This document shows positions 46,667 to 55,241 of a stretch of 64,000 nt of DNA, in pieces (the stretch's first letter is position 1; every line of letters starts with the position of its first letter). The stretch covers positions 2,108,001 to 2,172,000 of the forward strand of contig NC_020388.1 of assembly GCF_000591055.1 (NCBI RefSeq), in the 5' to 3' direction. This DNA comes from Natronomonas moolapensis 8.8.11 (GTDB lineage Archaea > Halobacteriota > Halobacteria > Halobacteriales > Haloarculaceae). A model generated the notes under the pieces. It worked only from the letters and a program-made list of their open reading frames with translations, had not been told where the DNA came from and did no database searches. A program made the translations under genes and the position numbers.

Positions 46667-47401
46667 TCACGCCCGCCCGTAGGGACCGAGCCGCGTGCCG
46701 TCCAGCAGGTACGCCTCCCCATCCCGGAGGCCGGAGGGCAGAAACGGCGAGAGGAAGCCCTCGTCCTCGTTCACCGCCGAGCCGCCCGAACGGTCGTTGA
46801 ACGCCGGGCAGACGACGAGCCGATCCCCGACCGCGTCGTAGCCGGAAAACCCCGCGGGATCGAGCCGTCCCCGGAGCCAGACGCGCTCGGTCCGGGACCC
46901 GCCGACCGCGTCGGTCAGCCGGACGAGGGGGTGCTCGTGGGCGGCACAGACCAACGGCGCGGCGGCGACTCGATCCGCGGGCCAAGTGTGGCCGTGACAG
47001 AAGCCGACGTCGCCGATCCGAACGCCGTCGCCGTCGGCGACCTCGACGTTGCCGATCCCGTCGGTAACGGCCTCGATACCGCCGTCGTGGTTGCCCTTCG
47101 CGACGGTTACGGGGCACTCGGCTGCGACACGATCTAGTAGGGTCCGAAGCTCCGTTCGCTCTTCGCGCCCGGCGGTCCCGATTGCGTCGCCGAGGTCGCC
47201 GAGGAACACCACCCGATCGACCGACACGCGGGCCAAGAGCGCGAGTAGCCGTTCGCGGCGGTTCGCGGCGTGGCTATCGAGTTCGACGCCGTCGCGCCGG
47301 AGACCGACCTCGATGCCGGCGTGGTAATCAGCGATCACGAGGGCGCGCTCGTCGCCGCAGTCCGCGACCGCGGCGGGTTCGTCGGGGACCGGATCGAGCA
47401 T
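46667..47401 (-). CDS. RPA-operon calcineurin-like phosphoesterase
   Basis: 244 residues. Metallophosphoesterase motifs: 'ALVIADYHAGIEVGL' (Asp, His), 'RVVFLGDLGDAIG' (GD), 'VTVAKGNHDGGIEAV' (GNHD) and 'VGFCHGHTWP' (GHTW). It is the third gene after rpa and its partner on the same strand, with zero gap to the middle gene; in Haloferax volcanii the rpa1 operon has the same order (there named rpe, not ribulose epimerase). A role in DNA repair is inferred. Confidence 0.88.
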   Translation of the reverse strand: MLDPVPDEPAAVADCGDERALVIADYHAGIEVGLRRDGVELDSHAANRRERLLALLARVSVDRVVFLGDLGDAIGTAGREERTELRTLLDRVAAECPVTVAKGNHDGGIEAVTDGIGNVEVADGDGVRIGDVGFCHGHTWPADRVAAAPLVCAAHEHPLVRLTDAVGGSRTERVWLRGRLDPAGFSGYDAVGDRLVVCPAFNDRSGGSAVNEDEGFLSPFLPSGLRDGEAYLLDGTRLGPYGRA

Positions 47402-49093
47402 TCAGATCCGCTTCAGCGTGTCGTCCGAGGGCTCATAACACCGCCCGCTCATCAACGCGTCCTGTATCGCGTCCTCGACGTCGGCGGGGGCGACCCCGCG
47501 TGCGTCGGCGACCGCCGAGACGAGCTCGTCGCGGTCGACCCCCTCGCCGTCGTCGAGGTCGCCCATCGTCGCCACGACGGCCTCGTCGAGGTCGACCGGT
47601 TCGGCGTCGGCCGGTGTGTCGGGCTCGGCGTCGCCGGCCGCTTCCGCTTCGGGGGTATCGCCCCCCGCGCTCTCGGAGGCGGGCGTTTCTGCTGTGTGGG
47701 GCTCGCCCGGTTCCCCGTCGACCCCGGTGGCGTCGGTCCCGGTGGCGTCGGTCCCGGTGTCCGGCTCGGCGTCGGGAGCCGTCCCCGCCCCCTCGGGTTC
47801 GATGTCGGCCGGTTCGACCTCGTCGGCGGTCGAGAACTCCGTCCCGTACTCCTCCTCGACCGCTTGGCGTTCGGACTCGTCGAGCTCGAACTCGCCGGGA
47901 TCGACGTCCTCGGGATCACTGAGCGCGTCGTCGCCGACGGGCTCCGGGTCCGGCGTCGGACCGTCGAGTGGGTCGGCGGCATCCGTGCCCGCCCCGAGGC
48001 TCGATTCCGCGCCGGGATCCGATCCCGTTTCCGGGGTCGGCTCAGACCCGGGCTCGGACGGCGTCGTCGGCTCCGAGTCCGCCGCCGCATCCGACATCGA
48101 CGCCGGTTCCGCGGTCGTATCGGCGTCCGCCGGCGGTCCTGGATCGGCGGCCGTCTCCGCGGTCGCTTCCGGTTCGGCATCCGTCCCAACACCGGTTTCC
48201 GGTCCCGGCTCCGTTTCGGACGTCGGGTCGGGATCGGGTTCCGGTTCCGGTTCCACACCCGCGTCCGGCTCCGCGCCGGCATCGGCGGCGTCGGATCCGT
48301 CGTCCCCCACGCCGGCCGCGGCCGCCGCGCTCTCCGGCGTCGGCGCCCCGGCGAGATCGACCGTCGCCAGCTCGCCCGCGTCGCCGGTTCCCTCCCCCGG
48401 CGCGAGTTCGAGCTCGGAGACCGCCTCGCGCTCGCCGGCGACGACCGCGACGGCCTCGAGGGCGACCCGCCTGAGATCGGCGAGGTACGCCGGCGTCGTC
48501 CCGTAGTAGTCGACCGCGAGCGCGACGCCGTCGGCCAGTCGGTCGTCGACGCCGGCCTCGGCGAGCGCGGCCCGAAGCTGATCGCCGACGAGGCCCGATT
48601 CGATCGCGGCGGCCATCACGCCGATCCGCTCGAGCGTGCGCTCGGCGGCGGTCACGACCCACCGGTCCCTCGTTTCGGCGTCGACCTCGCTCACCGTCTC
48701 GGGGCGAACCGAGCTGTAGATCCGGTCGCCGTCGTCGGGTTCGTACGTTCGGGCCTTCCCCGAGAGCGAAAAGAAGGCGGGCGGGTCGGCGCGCTCGAGG
48801 ACCGCCAGGGCGTCGGGTTGGTACTGCCCGGCGTAGGTGACGAATGCCCCCGTCGGATCGACGAGTCGGCCCCGGACCATCTCGGGGTTCACGTCGTCGA
48901 CTTCCGTGAGGACGCCGATGGCGAAGAGGCGGTTGACCCGCGCGCCGGTCGGCGTCACGACGTAGTTCGGGGCGCGCTCCTCGTTGCTCTCGCTGTAGGA
49001 GCGCTCCGAATCGTCGAACTCGACGGCGAAGAGCCGGTAGGCGACTTCCCGGCGGCCGGGGGCGGACCCGGACCCGGATTCGGAGTCGCTCAT
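47402..49093 (-). CDS. RPA-associated protein (Rpap-like)
   Basis: 563 residues from ATG 49093. The N-terminal ~150 residues ('EVAYRLFAVEFDDSERSYSE', 'VNRLFAIGVLTEVDDVNPEM') form the OB-fold-like RPA-associated domain. A middle of ~200 residues is low-complexity Asp/Glu/Pro/Ala. The C-terminus ('ELVSAVADARGVAPADVEDA') is a winged-helix-like end. By family it forms a single-stranded-DNA-binding complex with its cognate RPA. Overlaps the rpa stop by four bases (ATGA). Confidence 0.87.
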   Translation of the reverse strand: MSDSESGSGSAPGRREVAYRLFAVEFDDSERSYSESNEERAPNYVVTPTGARVNRLFAIGVLTEVDDVNPEMVRGRLVDPTGAFVTYAGQYQPDALAVLERADPPAFFSLSGKARTYEPDDGDRIYSSVRPETVSEVDAETRDRWVVTAAERTLERIGVMAAAIESGLVGDQLRAALAEAGVDDRLADGVALAVDYYGTTPAYLADLRRVALEAVAVVAGEREAVSELELAPGEGTGDAGELATVDLAGAPTPESAAAAAGVGDDGSDAADAGAEPDAGVEPEPEPDPDPTSETEPGPETGVGTDAEPEATAETAADPGPPADADTTAEPASMSDAAADSEPTTPSEPGSEPTPETGSDPGAESSLGAGTDAADPLDGPTPDPEPVGDDALSDPEDVDPGEFELDESERQAVEEEYGTEFSTADEVEPADIEPEGAGTAPDAEPDTGTDATGTDATGVDGEPGEPHTAETPASESAGGDTPEAEAAGDAEPDTPADAEPVDLDEAVVATMGDLDDGEGVDRDELVSAVADARGVAPADVEDAIQDALMSGRCYEPSDDTLKRI

Positions 49094-50361
49094 CCCTTCA
49101 CCTCCGCGAGGAAGGCCGCCGCGCGCGCCTCGGGGTCCGCGTCGCTCTCGGCGAACTCGGAGGCGTTGAGATTCGCGCCGTACTCGTCGACCGACAGCGA
49201 CCCCCGGACGCGGTACGCCCGGCCCTCGAGTCGGGTCGCGATCCGGTCGGCGACGACGTCCCGGTTCATCTCGTCGCGGGCGTGCTCGAGGGCGTCCTCG
49301 AGGGTGCCGCCGTAGACCTCGGCGGTCAACTCCCGGTCGAGGATGGCGGTGACGGTGTCGGTACCGTCGTCGAGGATAGCCTTCACGCGCAGGTCGTCCT
49401 CGGGGTCGACCTGGCCGTGGGTGCGACACTGGTCGTTCTGGACGACGCGGCCACACTCCGGACAACGCTGGATGAGCCCCGAGCCGTCCCGGACCTCGAT
49501 GACGTTCCCCGTCAGGAGGACGTCGTAGACGCCGCCCGAGGCGACCGCCTCCCGTACCGACAACTCGGTCGCGGAGTCGCTGACGTCGACGGCGGCGACG
49601 GGGGCGACCGACGAGAACTCCGTGACGTTCACCGAGGGGACGCCGCGGAACTCGTCGACGTAGACGTCCGCCAGACGCACCGACGCGCCCTCGGTGAGTT
49701 CGTCGTGGGGAGCCCAGTCGGTGAAGGGGAGCCGCGTCGTCTCGTCGCCCACCTCACCGCTGAGGATCTCCGTCTCGCCGTCCCGACCGTCGATCGTCCG
49801 GCGCTCGACGTCGAGAACCCGGACCTCGATCGTTCGACCGCGATCGCCCGCTTCGAGCTCGATGAGGTCGCGCTCGCCGCCGACCGGGTAGGGGACCTCG
49901 AGTGGGTCCTCGCGTACGGTCACCGTTGTCGACCCACCGAGGTTCAACTCCGGCTCCCCGTCCCATTCGCGGACGCCGGCGTTGCCCGCGGTGATCGTGT
50001 CGCCCGACGACAACGAAAAGTCGTTCCAAGCGGTGTAGGAGATCCGCCCCGACTCGTCGGCGAGCTCGCCCTCGAAAATGATCTGCTCGTCGCCCTCATA
50101 TTGGATGGACCGCTTGCCGACGGTCAACACCCGCGCCGAGACAGTCACGTTGCCCGACTCCGGCGTGATGTCGGCGATGTCCGTCTCCGAGGGCGTCCCG
50201 CCGCCGCTCGGCCCGCCGTCGCCGTACTTGCGGCGCAGGCTCTGTTTGGCCTCGTCCATCGGCACCGAGTACGAGACGAGCTTCTCGAGATCCGCCTTGA
50301 CCTCCGTTTTGTCCACGCCGAGGGTGGAGGCGAGCTCCTCGGCCGCGTCGTCGAGACTCAT
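49090..50361 (-). CDS. rpa1: Replication protein A (single-stranded DNA-binding, Rpa1-like)
   Basis: 423 residues from ATG 50361. Three OB-fold stretches ('NVTVSARVLTVGKRSIQ', 'RTIEVRVLDVERRTIDG', 'YDVLLTGNVIEVRDGSG') and a C-terminal zinc finger 'QRCPECGRVVQNDQCRTHG'. Coats single-stranded DNA in replication and repair. Operon order with Rpap and phosphoesterase matches the H. volcanii rpa1 operon. A palindromic TATA (GGTTTATAAACC) at ~50411-50422 is ~50 nt before the start. A TTG at 50388 is a possible alternative. Confidence 0.88.
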   Translation of the reverse strand: MSLDDAAEELASTLGVDKTEVKADLEKLVSYSVPMDEAKQSLRRKYGDGGPSGGGTPSETDIADITPESGNVTVSARVLTVGKRSIQYEGDEQIIFEGELADESGRISYTAWNDFSLSSGDTITAGNAGVREWDGEPELNLGGSTTVTVREDPLEVPYPVGGERDLIELEAGDRGRTIEVRVLDVERRTIDGRDGETEILSGEVGDETTRLPFTDWAPHDELTEGASVRLADVYVDEFRGVPSVNVTEFSSVAPVAAVDVSDSATELSVREAVASGGVYDVLLTGNVIEVRDGSGLIQRCPECGRVVQNDQCRTHGQVDPEDDLRVKAILDDGTDTVTAILDRELTAEVYGGTLEDALEHARDEMNRDVVADRIATRLEGRAYRVRGSLSVDEYGANLNASEFAESDADPEARAAAFLAEVKG

Positions 50362-50442
50362 ACCGGACGGTTCGTCGCCCCGTGGCAAAAGGGTTCGTGA
50401 CGCCCGGCGGGGTTTATAAACCCACCGTCGGGACCGATCGAT

Positions 50443-53241
50443 TCAGGAGTAAAACAACGCCGGGCGACGCGTCTCCGATCCGGCCCCACGCGCGCCGTCG
50501 TACGCGTCGAAGGACTCGATCGAGGCCTCGCCCAGCAGGAGTTCGAGGATGTCGATCGCCGAGGCCCGGAGCAGGGGCCGGTTGTCGTTGCCGCAGTTCT
50601 CGTCGAACGTGCACGCCGGGCAACCGTTCGGCCGGCCACAGCGGCACTCGCGGAGCTGATCGCGGGCGCGGACCGCGAGCGACTCGAAGGACTCGTAGAT
50701 CGCGCGGGCGAAACCGAGGCCGCCTTCGACCCCGTCATATATAAACCACCCCGAGGCGGGCGGGCCGTCGAGGCGGCCGCTCCGAGCGTCGATTTCGTGC
50801 TCGGCCGCCCGGAGCGATTCGGGGACCGAACCGGGGTCGGGGACCGAGTCACTCGCGGCGACGCGTCGGACCGCCTCCGAGCCGTCGGGGTCCCGGGCCG
50901 ATCCAGCGCCGTCGGCGGCGTAGTGCGAGTCCAACACCAGCGTCGCCAGTCCGCCGAGGTCGCCCTTGTCGACGCGCAACTCCAGCGGCGCGGTCTGTAT
51001 CGTAGCGTGTTCGGCGGCGTGCAGCCCGGCGACGTAGCCGAGATGCGGCGGGTCGGCCGCGTCGGCGTCGACGCCCGTCTCGACGCCGTAGTCGCGGTAC
51101 GTCTCGACCAGCGTCCGCTCGATCGTTTTCGGGACCTCGACCCAGCAGAGCTGTGTCTCCATCGCGATCGGGTCCGTCCCGGTCGGGATCCCGGCATCGA
51201 CGGTCTCGCTGTTGCCGATTGACACCCGATCGTAGGCGTCGTGGTGGACGAGCACCGTCCCGCGGCCGAAGTGGAGGTCGAACCCGTTGACCGTGCGTGA
51301 TTCCTCGGCGTCGGCGTCGACGACGTTCACGTCGGTTCGGGTCCGGGTGTAGTAGTCGACGTCGACGGGCACGAGTTCGATCACCGGGGTCGGGCGCGAC
51401 TCGTCGACGGCGACGACCTCGAACTGCTGGCCGCTGTGGAGCCGGACCGCCCCCTCGTGGTAGTCGCGGGCGGCGCGGTTCCGGTCGACCGGTTCGAGGT
51501 CTAACTCCTCGGGGAGGCCCCAGCGGTCGCGGTCGACGCCGTCGGCGAGCGTCAGCCGGTAGTCGGTCCCGTCCGTCCCGTAGACGTTCACGTCCGTCTG
51601 GGGTCGCGGCGGCCCGACGTAGTGGACGGCGGCTTCTCGATGACCCTCGAGTTTGCCGGCGCGGCGCCACATCTCGATCCCGGCCCGGAGCCGGTCGGCG
51701 TCAGCGAACGACCCGAAGTCGTCGGTCCCGAGCGCGATCTCGTCGGCCGCACACAGCAGGTGGCTGGCGAAGACGGCGTCGTTCGAGGTGTCGACGACCG
51801 CGTCCTCGACGTCGGACTCGAGGAGGTACTCGGGGTTCGAGACGACGTACTGATCCAGCGTCCGGTGGTCGGCGACCAACACGGCGAGGCTGCGGTCGGT
51901 CCCCCGTCCCGCCCGGCCGATCCGCTGACGGAAGGACTGCCGCTGGCCGGGATATCCCATCAACACCGTCGCCTCCAGAGAGCCGATGTCGATGCCGAGT
52001 TCGAGTGCCGAGGTCGTCGCGAGGCCGCACAACGCGTCGGTTTTGAACTCCGTCTCGCGCGCGTGTCGTGTCCGCTTCCCGAGGCCGGCGTGATAGGGCG
52101 CGATCCGCGCCGTCGCCGCCTCGCCGTAGGTTCGCGGGTTCGCCTGGACGTGGGCGTTCGCCCGCCGGACGCTCAACTCGGTGAGCTTGCGGCTCGGGCA
52201 AAACAGGAGCGTCCCGACGTCGTCGGCGAGGTGGCCGAACACCTTCGGCGCGTCGACGCTCGCGGGCACGCGGTCGGCGACGCCGTCGTCGACGCGCGAT
52301 TCCACGTCTCTGTCGCCCGTCGAGGAGGCCTCTCCGGTCGTCGCCCCGTCGCCCGCCGGAGAGGCAGTTTCGCTCGACATCCCGTCCGAGCGCTCGCGCG
52401 GCGGCGGGTTCCAGAGGACGACGTCCCGGGCTCCCCGCGGCGAGCCGTCGTCGTCGACGACGGTCACGGGCGCGCCGAGCAGCGCCTCCGAGTGGGCCGC
52501 CGGGTTGCCGACCGTCGCCGACGCGAGCGCGTACGTCGGGTCGCCGCCCCAGTACTCGAGGACCCGTTCGAGCCGCCGGAGGATCCAGGCCGCGTGCATT
52601 CCCTGCACCCCGGTGTACGTGTGGGACTCGTCGACGGCGACCACCTCGAGGGCGCTGTAGAACCGGCTCCAGCGGTCGTGGTGCTCGAGGTAGACGTTCA
52701 GCGCCTGGACGTTCGTCAGGACGACGTCGGCGTCCTCGCGGATCGACCGCCGCTCGGCGGTCGGCGTGTCGCCGTCGTACACCCGCACGCGAATATCGAG
52801 CCCCAGTTCCTCGTACAGCGCGTCGAGCGCGTCGCGTTGGTCGTTGGTCAGCGCCTTCGTCGGGTAGAGACACAGCGCGGTCGCCCCCTCGTTGCGGTCC
52901 GCGGCCCGGGTTCCGTCGGGGGCGAGCACGCCGGCGTCGAGCAGCCGTCTGGCGATCTCGACGCCGTAGACGTGGGTCTTGCCGCTGGCCGTCGAGGTCG
53001 ACACGCAGACGTGCTCGTCCGCCCGGAGCGCCCGCAGGGCGGCCGCCTGATGGCTGTACAGCTCGAAGGGGTACCGGTCCGCGAGGACCGAGTCCAAGAC
53101 CGTCTCAGCCGGGACTGTTTCGGCTTCGCGGGCGGGGATAGTGAGGACGGACGCGGACGCCGAGTCCGGTCCGAGTCCGGCGCGCGGAAACGCTTCGAGC
53201 AGTCGGTCGCCGTCGGTCGGTCGTGTGTCGCTGTCGCGCAT
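50443..53241 (-). CDS. DEAD/DEAH-box helicase with DUF1998-type zinc C-terminus (MrfA/Hrq1-like)
   Basis: 932 residues. Motif I 'VSTSTASGKTHVYGVEI', Ia 'CLYPTKALTNDQRDAL', II 'EVVAVDESHTYTGVQ' (DESH), III 'YALASATVGNP', VI 'FRQRIGRAGRGTDRS'. The C-terminal Cys cluster 'CRCGRPNGCPACTFDENCGN' is the DUF1998/MrfA zinc site. The family (yeast Hrq1, Bacillus MrfA) unwinds DNA in crosslink or mitomycin repair. An acidic stretch (~290-325) is inserted after motif III. The next gene up encodes the exonuclease partner, 1 bp apart. Confidence 0.88.
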   Translation of the reverse strand: MRDSDTRPTDGDRLLEAFPRAGLGPDSASASVLTIPAREAETVPAETVLDSVLADRYPFELYSHQAAALRALRADEHVCVSTSTASGKTHVYGVEIARRLLDAGVLAPDGTRAADRNEGATALCLYPTKALTNDQRDALDALYEELGLDIRVRVYDGDTPTAERRSIREDADVVLTNVQALNVYLEHHDRWSRFYSALEVVAVDESHTYTGVQGMHAAWILRRLERVLEYWGGDPTYALASATVGNPAAHSEALLGAPVTVVDDDGSPRGARDVVLWNPPPRERSDGMSSETASPAGDGATTGEASSTGDRDVESRVDDGVADRVPASVDAPKVFGHLADDVGTLLFCPSRKLTELSVRRANAHVQANPRTYGEAATARIAPYHAGLGKRTRHARETEFKTDALCGLATTSALELGIDIGSLEATVLMGYPGQRQSFRQRIGRAGRGTDRSLAVLVADHRTLDQYVVSNPEYLLESDVEDAVVDTSNDAVFASHLLCAADEIALGTDDFGSFADADRLRAGIEMWRRAGKLEGHREAAVHYVGPPRPQTDVNVYGTDGTDYRLTLADGVDRDRWGLPEELDLEPVDRNRAARDYHEGAVRLHSGQQFEVVAVDESRPTPVIELVPVDVDYYTRTRTDVNVVDADAEESRTVNGFDLHFGRGTVLVHHDAYDRVSIGNSETVDAGIPTGTDPIAMETQLCWVEVPKTIERTLVETYRDYGVETGVDADAADPPHLGYVAGLHAAEHATIQTAPLELRVDKGDLGGLATLVLDSHYAADGAGSARDPDGSEAVRRVAASDSVPDPGSVPESLRAAEHEIDARSGRLDGPPASGWFIYDGVEGGLGFARAIYESFESLAVRARDQLRECRCGRPNGCPACTFDENCGNDNRPLLRASAIDILELLLGEASIESFDAYDGARGAGSETRRPALFYS

Positions 53242-53242
53242 A

Positions 53243-54802
53243 TCAGAACTCCGTCAGTCCGCTCTGTCGACCGCTCGCACCGCCCGACCCGCTGTCGGTC
53301 GTGTCCCGGCGGTCGGCGCTCTCGATCGCCTCGTAGACGTGCCAAAGCGCCTCGCAGTCGTCCCGGCAGTACCGCTCGTGCCGCGCCCAGTCGGGTTCGG
53401 CCGCCGGGTCGTCAGGTCGTCGCATGAAGCGTCGGTACGCGGCCGCGGTCCGGGCGCCGGAGAGTCCCCGTTCGCGCGGTTCGTAGCCCAGCGCCTCGGC
53501 GACGTCTCCGAGGCGGTTCGTCCGCCCGGGCAACAGCGCGTTGCCGTCTCGGACGGCCCATTCGTACAGGTCGTACCGCCGGACGTCGGTCCAGGCCTCG
53601 ACGTAGTGGGGGTAGTGCCGGTGGAGGAAGCGCTCGATCTGTGGGTAGTCGAACCGGGTCCCGTTCCACGTCAGGAGCGCCCGGTCGGCGTGGGTTCCGA
53701 GCAGCCACTCCACGAAGCGGCCGAGGACGCCTGCGGCGTCGGCCGGGTCGGTGCGCTCGAGGAACGCCCGGTAGGTGTCCGCCGCGGGGTCATAGACCCC
53801 GAACTGCCAGATGATCGTCGGCGAGAGACCGTCGGTTTCGATATCGAGGCACAGCGGCGGCTGCCCCGACCGCGTCGGGGCGGGCGACTCGTTCGTCAGT
53901 TTGAGCGGCGCGCCGGTCTCGATCACCTCGGCGTGGGCGTGGAGGCGCTCGGCCGTGCGCCGGCCGATCCCCTCGATCGTCGCCAACTCGGCGACCGCGA
54001 CGTCGCCGACGTCGGCCCTGGTTCGACAGCCGACGTCGGCCAGGCGTTCTTCCGTCGCCGCCCCGACGCCGTCGAGTGCCCGAAGCCCGAAGCGGTCGGC
54101 GGCGATGGCGTCTGCCGACGCGACCCCGTCCGGCCCGCAGACGACGTCGACGAACGCAGCCCCGCCCTCGCCGCCGGCCCCGAGGCCGACAACCGGAACG
54201 TCGACCGTCGGGGAGTCGGGAGCCGGGTCGGCTTCCGGGACGCTCGCGGGACTCCCCGACGCGGAGGCGTCGATCGGGAGCGTCCAGACGTGGTGATAGC
54301 CCGCGGGCTGGCCGCCGGCCAACACGGCAAGCGGGCCGTCGATCGAGGCGGCGATCGCGGCCACGTCGTCGGCAAACGGTAGGGTCGCACACAGCGAAGT
54401 GCGGTCGGCCTCGACGGAGAACTCCGGGACGAACAGGTACGTCGCGTCCGCGCCGGGCGCGATCGGGTCCGGGCGCCCCCGGAGGTCGGCGAGGACGGCC
54501 CCCGACTGGATCGCGAGGAGGGTCGGTGTTTCGGCTTCGCCGCCCTCGGCCGGCCGGAGGCCCCTCTGGCCCGGACCGTACCGGGACGCCCGCTCGCCGT
54601 TTCGGCCCAACTGCGGATGGATCGCCGGGACGGCGTCGAGTTCGGTCCGGACGGCGGCGTACCCGCGAGCGTTCCGATTCCCGGGCAGGAGTACCGCGTC
54701 AGGGTCGAAATACGAGGTCGCGTCGGCGAGCGTCGCGCCGGACAGCCGGTCGGCCGCGGCGGCGGGGACCGACAGCAACCGGACGGGCGACGCTCCGGAC
54801 AT
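53243..54802 (-). CDS. RNase H-like exonuclease with HhH motif (MrfB/YprB-like)
   Basis: 519 residues from ATG 54802. The N-terminal ~240 residues are unassigned. A helix-hairpin-helix pair 'LRALDGVGAATEERLADVGC' and 'LATIEGIGRRTAERLHAHAE' follows, then a DEDDh-type exonuclease: 'PLCLDIETDGLSPTII' (D, E), 'LTWNGTRFDYPQIERFL' (D) and 'HERYCRDDCEALWHVY' (D). Bacillus MrfB (YprB) has the same nuclease and sits next to MrfA. Start at 54910 would add 36 residues not resembling family sequence. Confidence 0.85.
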   Translation of the reverse strand: MSGASPVRLLSVPAAAADRLSGATLADATSYFDPDAVLLPGNRNARGYAAVRTELDAVPAIHPQLGRNGERASRYGPGQRGLRPAEGGEAETPTLLAIQSGAVLADLRGRPDPIAPGADATYLFVPEFSVEADRTSLCATLPFADDVAAIAASIDGPLAVLAGGQPAGYHHVWTLPIDASASGSPASVPEADPAPDSPTVDVPVVGLGAGGEGGAAFVDVVCGPDGVASADAIAADRFGLRALDGVGAATEERLADVGCRTRADVGDVAVAELATIEGIGRRTAERLHAHAEVIETGAPLKLTNESPAPTRSGQPPLCLDIETDGLSPTIIWQFGVYDPAADTYRAFLERTDPADAAGVLGRFVEWLLGTHADRALLTWNGTRFDYPQIERFLHRHYPHYVEAWTDVRRYDLYEWAVRDGNALLPGRTNRLGDVAEALGYEPRERGLSGARTAAAYRRFMRRPDDPAAEPDWARHERYCRDDCEALWHVYEAIESADRRDTTDSGSGGASGRQSGLTEF

Positions 54803-54866: not shown

Positions 54867-55241
54867 TCACTCGGCGAGCTGTTCGGCCAGACGGACGACG
54901 ATCGGGACATCGGCGTCCTCGACGAAGCGGGCGCGTTCGGCCCCCGACTCGGCGTCCTCGACGACGACGGTCGGGATCAACTCGACGTTGTAGGCCTCGA
55001 CCCCGGGGCCGACCTTCGAGCCGTCGTCGGCCTTCTCGACGGGGCGGTGTTCGACCGCTTCGACGCCGGCGGCCTCCATCGCCGCGCCGAAGTCCGGGAG
55101 CTGGGATCGGCAGTCGACGCACCAATCGCCACCCCAGACCTTCACGACGACGTCGTCGGCGACGGCCTCGAAAGCCGCGACGGCCTCATCGTAGGAGTCG
55201 GCGTCCCAGGCGGGGTTCGGACGGAGGGTTTCGAGTTCCAT
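54867..55241 (-). CDS. Thioredoxin-like protein
   Basis: 124 residues from ATG 55241. 'VVVKVWGGDWCVDCRSQLPD' carries a CVDC redox pair after the Trp, and 'NVELIPTVVVEDAES' carries the cis-Pro. It is a cytoplasmic thioredoxin fold with an atypical active-site sequence. Function likely thiol-disulfide exchange; partner unknown. Stands between the repair block and the chemotaxis genes. Confidence 0.85.
   Translation of the reverse strand: MELETLRPNPAWDADSYDEAVAAFEAVADDVVVKVWGGDWCVDCRSQLPDFGAAMEAAGVEAVEHRPVEKADDGSKVGPGVEAYNVELIPTVVVEDAESGAERARFVEDADVPIVVRLAEQLAE

Follow-up and report, generated by a model that had tools for sequence, protein, structure and literature searches.

An exonuclease–helicase pair beside the RPA operon of Natronomonas moolapensis is probably a haloarchaeal, MrfAB-like DNA-repair module

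Does a pair of exonuclease and helicase genes that lies immediately before the operon of the single-stranded DNA-binding protein RPA in Natronomonas moolapensis 8.8.11 work with that operon, or is it a module of its own? We studied the locus in a stretch of 64,000 nucleotides (NC_020388.1, positions 2,108,001 to 2,172,000; below, the window) from the complete, 2.91-Mb chromosome of this haloarchaeon (genome G000), where open reading frames and family searches give the minus-strand gene order trx – exo – hel – rpa – rpap – phosphoesterase. A preliminary description of this DNA had likened exo and hel to the MrfA/MrfB repair pair of Bacillus and proposed an excision pathway for crosslinks that works with RPA; the genes that it named are all where it placed them and all on the minus strand, and their names were confirmed by family searches. 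The two halves of that proposal fared differently, however, in our analysis: by analogy with MrfAB, exo and hel are probably a two-gene DNA-repair module belonging to a haloarchaea-specific MrfAB-like branch, and their position between trx and rpa looks accidental. The pair and its domains occupy the following positions:

53243-54802, minus strand: exo, DEDDy 3'-5' exonuclease-like protein of 519 amino acids, with catalytic D320, E322, D385, Y478 and D482
54098-54802, minus strand: exo residues 1-235, putative degenerate calcineurin-like metallophosphoesterase (pseudo-MPE) domain, from a Foldseek search with the domain model
53915-54088, minus strand: exo residues 239-296, helix-hairpin-helix (HhH) DNA-binding region (HHH_5; matches to the HhH of RadA, Rad51 and L32e; five helices in the model)
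53318-53854, minus strand: exo residues 317-495, RNase_H_2 (DnaQ/DEDDy) catalytic domain, from Pfam, alignment and model
53246-53266, minus strand: exo residues 513-519, QSGLTEF, predicted C-terminal PCNA-interacting (PIP) motif, following a disordered linker
50443-53241, minus strand: hel, MrfA/YprA-family superfamily 2 (SF2) helicase of 932 amino acids, with DEAD, Helicase_C and MZB
50608-50823, minus strand: MZB (DUF1998) zinc-binding domain of hel (PF09369, E 5e-14), its Cys cluster intact

The couple is strongly conserved and behaves as a unit. GTDB genome contigs were scanned for relatives of the exonuclease and yielded 80 haloarchaeal loci that encode one, and in every one of them (80/80) a relative of the helicase follows directly downstream, on the same strand and in the same order; in the window, the two genes are separated by 1 bp. 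The relatives form a group B, which includes the window (exo 41–64% identical, helicase 52–70%), and a group A (about 31–41% and 37–46%, respectively). The nearest pair-bearing relative is a Natronomonas metagenome-assembled genome (L100), and G003, the genome that matches it, is assigned to that genus, too. Full-length exo relatives, with both the N-terminal domain and the PIP motif, were found in Halobacteria only and none outside them; the open-licence literature yielded no description of the family. The pair moves, since the B copies of Halobellus and Natrinema are near-identical despite lying in different families, and several copies are carried on large plasmids.

The genome of the window contains a second, A-type pair 0.58 Mb away (G000 1571560-1575389; L026), whose exonuclease lacks about 42 N-terminal residues in comparison with G017; the upstream DNA does not encode them, and the 5' end of this gene may be decaying. 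Halobacterium salinarum R1 carries an A-type pair on plasmid PHS3 (OE_RS12870–OE_RS12865; L261), followed by an RNase-H-like gene of about 214 amino acids (OE_RS12860). At the B-type loci of Natrialbaceae (L114-L144), the pair has a stable place on the chromosome, behind a divergently oriented thymidylate-synthase-like gene, and many of these loci have a trx gene and a DUF255 protein 5–9 kb upstream; in some Natronomonas, genes of these two kinds are also found at the flanks of the rpa operon.

The helicase consists in Pfam of DEAD, Helicase_C and MZB/DUF1998 (PF09369), its helicase motifs and zinc cluster are intact, and the closest solved structure is that of Bacillus subtilis MrfA/YprA (6znp, E 3e-86). 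Against TIGR03817, a non-defence YprA-type family, it scores 449 bits, under the model's own cut-off. In a midpoint-rooted helicase tree, group B forms a clade with support 100/100 and is surrounded by group A, while A and B together are split, again with 100/100, from the standalone helicases of haloarchaea and from MrfA of methanogens and of B. subtilis. The standalone helicases of haloarchaea (family A4) are themselves MrfA-like and about 31–33% identical to hel, but they have no adjoining exonuclease partner and form a clade of their own.

Across 381 haloarchaeal genomes at least 90% complete, we called the exonuclease at an E value of at most 1e-60 and the standalone helicase at one below 1e-220; 20 weaker helicase matches (about 1e-150 to 1e-201) were not counted, and the 19 of them that lie in pair genomes were read as the pair's own helicase. 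The exonuclease was found in 148 genomes and the standalone helicase in 224; 125 genomes have the pair only, 201 the standalone helicase only, 23 both and 32 neither, such that exactly one of the two is present in 326. If the two were independent, 87 genomes would be expected to have both (Fisher p ~3e-45, uncorrected for shared ancestry), and the same either/or pattern is seen within Natronomonas. The near-exclusivity therefore suggests that the pair and the standalone MrfA-like helicase do the same job and are interchangeable.

In the exonuclease, Pfam recognizes RNase_H_2 (E 5e-27) and HHH_5 (E 9e-9), and an AlphaFold2 model built with 69 homologues has a predicted local distance difference test score (pLDDT) of 91 and a predicted template-modelling score of 0.88. 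D320, E322, D385, Y478 and D482 are invariant across the 69 homologues, and because Tyr478 stands four residues before the last Asp, the protein is of the DEDDy type; the Foldseek matches of the catalytic domain are the exonuclease domain of T7 polymerase, ExoI and a TREX1 homologue. The HhH motifs and the N-terminus of about 240 residues, which had been pointed out as differences from MrfB, are both real, the former as HHH_5 and the latter as the domain modelled for residues 1-235. Modelled alone, that domain also reaches pLDDT 91, and its top Foldseek match is YmdB (probability 0.97, E 3.8e-3), followed by TT1561 and aq_1956 and, lower, by Mre11, PP1 and LpxH; the best fold matches have template-modelling scores of about 0.41–0.46 and are thus moderate and distant. 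A 68-row alignment of the domain shows no conserved Asp/His/Asn ligand set of the metal motifs DxH, GDxxD, GNHD/E and GHxH, and it should therefore be inactive. As direct profile comparison with phosphoesterase alignments gave nothing (hhalign E 0.08–0.6), the claim about the fold rests on structure and on the fusion architecture of a related protein family described below; from these we infer a degenerate calcineurin-type phosphoesterase. Eukaryotic polymerase B-subunits reuse a dead phosphoesterase as a scaffold. A RecB/Cas4-like N-terminal domain, prompted by a TIGR03491 match to the C-terminal part of the protein, was unsupported, with Foldseek pointing to phosphoesterases, and the whole-protein Foldseek alignments to B-family polymerases, of about 380 columns with a root-mean-square deviation of about 17 Å, were not counted as support for a polymerase-like one.

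After residue 495, the model continues as a low-confidence linker and tail (pLDDT below 50 at residues 502-512 and 517-519) that ends in QSGLTEF. The linker is variable, but its terminal motif is not: QxxhxxF/W stands at the C-terminal end of all 67 intact exo homologues (67/67), and Q513 is invariant in the 69-row alignment. Among the other genes of the fetched loci, such a motif occurs within the last ten residues in 4 of 1311. The PIP consensus of Haloferax volcanii is QxxLxxFx (PMC7776575), and NreA of that species needs its own PIP motif for mitomycin repair (PMC4929162). We regard this as good evidence, on the level of sequence, for a predicted PCNA-interacting motif.

The most likely function, again by analogy, would be that of a PCNA-tethered module for unwinding and 3'-5' resection at bulky DNA damage. 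Judging from MrfA, the helicase would load on a 3' strand, close to a bulky lesion or right at it, and unwind in the 3'-5' direction, and exo, which has the catalytic set for two-metal DEDDy chemistry, would degrade the damaged strand, once unwound, starting at the 3' end. The HhH motifs may grip the DNA backbone, and the inactive phosphoesterase domain may have a structural role or offer a docking surface, perhaps to the helicase, while the PIP motif could hold exo on PCNA, so that excision would hand over to polymerase B or D for gap filling. The strand laid bare may be covered by RPA, as would be expected of any pathway of this kind, but none of the evidence points to a special tie to the neighbouring rpa operon. 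More tentatively, the pair could be described as a clamp-coupled counterpart of MrfAB, in which a MrfA-like helicase is joined by a DEDDy exonuclease with a dead phosphoesterase scaffold, HhH and PIP, and which has been partly transferred and replaces the standalone helicase.

The genes around the pair, and the element before rpa, are these:

54867-55241, minus strand: trx, thioredoxin-like gene, preceding exo in the window and in G003 and standing directly before rpa in G019 and G004
49090-50361, minus strand: rpa, RPA1-type single-stranded DNA-binding protein (NF005554, 631 bits), a neighbour outside the conserved pair
47402-49093, minus strand: rpap, RPA-associated protein, beside rpa in the relatives read (weak PF25215)
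46667-47401, minus strand: calcineurin-like phosphoesterase of the rpa operon (PF00149, TIGR00024-like), conserved after rpap
50386-50397, minus strand: promoter-like element of rpa, CGAACCCTTTTG, present in every relative read

The rpa–rpap–phosphoesterase operon named in the preliminary description is present in the window (NF005554, PF00149), its order is kept in the relatives read, and the arrangement is the same as that of the H. volcanii rpa1–rpap1 operon with its phosphoesterase (PMC7776575). The rpa gene most likely starts at ATG 50361 rather than at TTG 50388, which leaves 81 bp between the helicase stop and the start codon. This closeness on one strand, the finding of five Natrinema loci with the rpa operon 4–5 kb upstream of the pair (the only other proximity seen) and the generic plausibility of RPA coating unwound strands could all be cited for a joint operon for the excision of crosslinks, with the MrfAB-like pair as a dedicated partner of the RPA–RPAP–phosphoesterase complex encoded next to it. 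We nevertheless consider that reading very improbable. The adjacency that the description wanted checked in other archaea holds for exo and hel, in methanogen pairs also, but not for the pair and rpa, which lies directly downstream in none of the 80 loci (0/80). In the closest relative (G003) the pair follows trx while rpa lies elsewhere, and in G019, whose rpa is 88% identical, and G004 the trx gene is followed directly by rpa with no pair between them, an "empty" arrangement; none of the relatives' rpa loci that were read has exo–hel beside rpa. Unlike in the window, the rpa operons elsewhere are followed, after the phosphoesterase, by a Lhr-like helicase in many relatives or by no helicase. 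A conserved exo–hel–rpa operon is ruled out by the context of the 80 pair loci and of the relatives' rpa loci. The element CGAACgCTTTTG shortly before the rpa ATG is kept in the window and eight relatives with five different upstream contexts, and since it is kept whatever lies upstream, transcription of rpa need not depend on the helicase; exo has a TATA-like stretch of its own, after trx. In H. volcanii, deletion of rpa1 causes no damage sensitivity (PMC7776575). The RPA genes thus look like chance neighbours of the pair. The stretch that separates the helicase stop from the promoter element of rpa (50399-50442) contains a near-perfect palindrome, GGTGGGTTTATAAACCCCGCC, possibly a regulator site or an extra TATA box. 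The Lhr-like SF2 helicase after rpa–rpap–phosphoesterase (L215-L218, L221, L222, L224, L225, L227, L228) is a more conserved helicase neighbour of RPA in haloarchaea than the pair of the window.

Two further explanations concern the pair itself. Several defence systems have a YprA helicase at their core (PMC12458937), and the pair could be an anti-virus or anti-plasmid module like the YprA-family systems DISARM, Dpd, Druantia and ARMADA; its patchy distribution, frequent carriage on large plasmids and the transfer implied by near-identical helicases in different families would agree with that. Such a role is quite unlikely, however, given that PADLOC reported no system and no match for the exonuclease, and that the helicase reached at most 125 bits against DruE, SngC, BrxH and DrmA, far below its score to TIGR03817. 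The module has two genes only, the methylase, PLD and Vsr partners of those systems are absent from its neighbours, it is near-exclusive with a standalone MrfA-like helicase, and the exonuclease was absent from the phage records searched, none of which carries the pair. A PCNA-bound helicase–exonuclease might, on the other hand, serve replication-associated 3'-end processing or fork restart and not lesion excision, for which the PIP motif and a catalytic fold nearest to polymerase proofreading and ExoI/TREX-type exonucleases could be adduced. We hold this to be unlikely: the pair is absent from more than half of the haloarchaeal genomes and so is not needed for replication, and the precedent in the family is damage repair (PMC11194089).

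The repair module of a MrfAB-like branch, which we prefer, has to contend with several observations of its own. In the helicase tree, which has midpoint rooting only, a long branch (0.98) divides the pair clade from MrfA, from its methanogen counterparts and from the standalone helicases of haloarchaea; the branch of B. subtilis MrfA is long as well. The exo profile gives no more than a weak match to MrfB (E 0.043). The exclusivity is partly phylogenetic, and the patchy spread, with the exonuclease in 148 of 381 genomes and many copies on large plasmids, is not what a core repair role would predict.

The repair of bulky adducts and crosslinks in archaea is poorly mapped; in H. volcanii, UvrABC, Hef and NreA, which bears a PIP motif, take part in the response to mitomycin (PMC4929162). 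A widespread, clamp-tagged module that is also present in H. salinarum R1 is directly testable by gene deletion, and the near-exclusivity predicts which strains should have a phenotype and which would have it masked by the standalone helicase.

Two other exonuclease families of haloarchaea bear comparison with exo. A fusion of MPE, HhH and RNase_H_2 (L257:5326-6780, L258:5741-7198, L259:4558-6015), the third haloarchaeal family, shares its domain order and is 27–28% identical over HhH–RNase_H_2 (hhalign E 2e-28), with the hhalign alignment extending into the end of the phosphoesterase domain; unlike exo, it has intact phosphoesterase motifs, no helicase seen beside it and no C-terminal PIP motif. 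The intact phosphoesterase at the same place supports a phosphoesterase origin of the N-terminal domain of exo. At L257, the neighbour of the fusion gene is a divergent SRAP gene whose product bears a PIP-like QSGLGEF at the C-terminus. L254 resembled an MPE fusion on visual inspection, but Pfam detected nothing in it beyond RNase_H_2 and a stretch resembling an integrase. The other family, a DEDDy RNase_H_2 exonuclease of 250–290 amino acids, is probably near-universal in haloarchaea (RNase_H_2 matches in 389 of 391 genomes) and was rejected as a form of exo, with no blast similarity to it and no helicase beside it. In 26 of 30 loci (L070-L099; a top-scoring and hence biased sample) it has a SRAP (HMCES/YedK-type) gene no more than 1.5 kb away, which suggests a link to abasic-site repair.

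With MrfA–MrfB (YprA–YprB) of B. subtilis, the pair shares a YprA-family SF2 helicase with MZB beside a DnaQ-fold RNase_H_2 exonuclease, but in the window the exonuclease gene comes first. While MrfB is DEDDh (His258; PMC11194089), exo is DEDDy (Y478); it has no C-terminal tetratricopeptide repeats, only the low-confidence tail and the PIP motif following residue 495, and the pseudo-phosphoesterase domain, the HhH motifs and the PIP motif are additions relative to MrfB. Methanogens also have adjacent pairs, with a shorter exonuclease (360–390 amino acids) upstream of a MrfA-like helicase (L252, L253, L255, L256, L260), and those tested match MrfA (E 5e-145) and MrfB (E 5e-24) and have HNxxD (DEDDh), which makes them ordinary MrfAB. 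They share with the window the order exonuclease then helicase, the adjacency and an archaeal host; their exonucleases, unlike exo, have neither the pseudo-MPE domain nor the PIP motif. The likeness to a MrfA/MrfB couple that had been proposed for exo and hel is thus borne out by their adjacency in 80 of 80 loci and by methanogen pairs showing that the kind exists in archaea, and MrfAB-like excision holds as an analogy. Among YprA helicases, the branch associated with MrfB is the one for repair (PMC12458937). The haloarchaeal pair is a divergent variant of MrfAB and probably forms a haloarchaea-specific branch rather than being a plain member.

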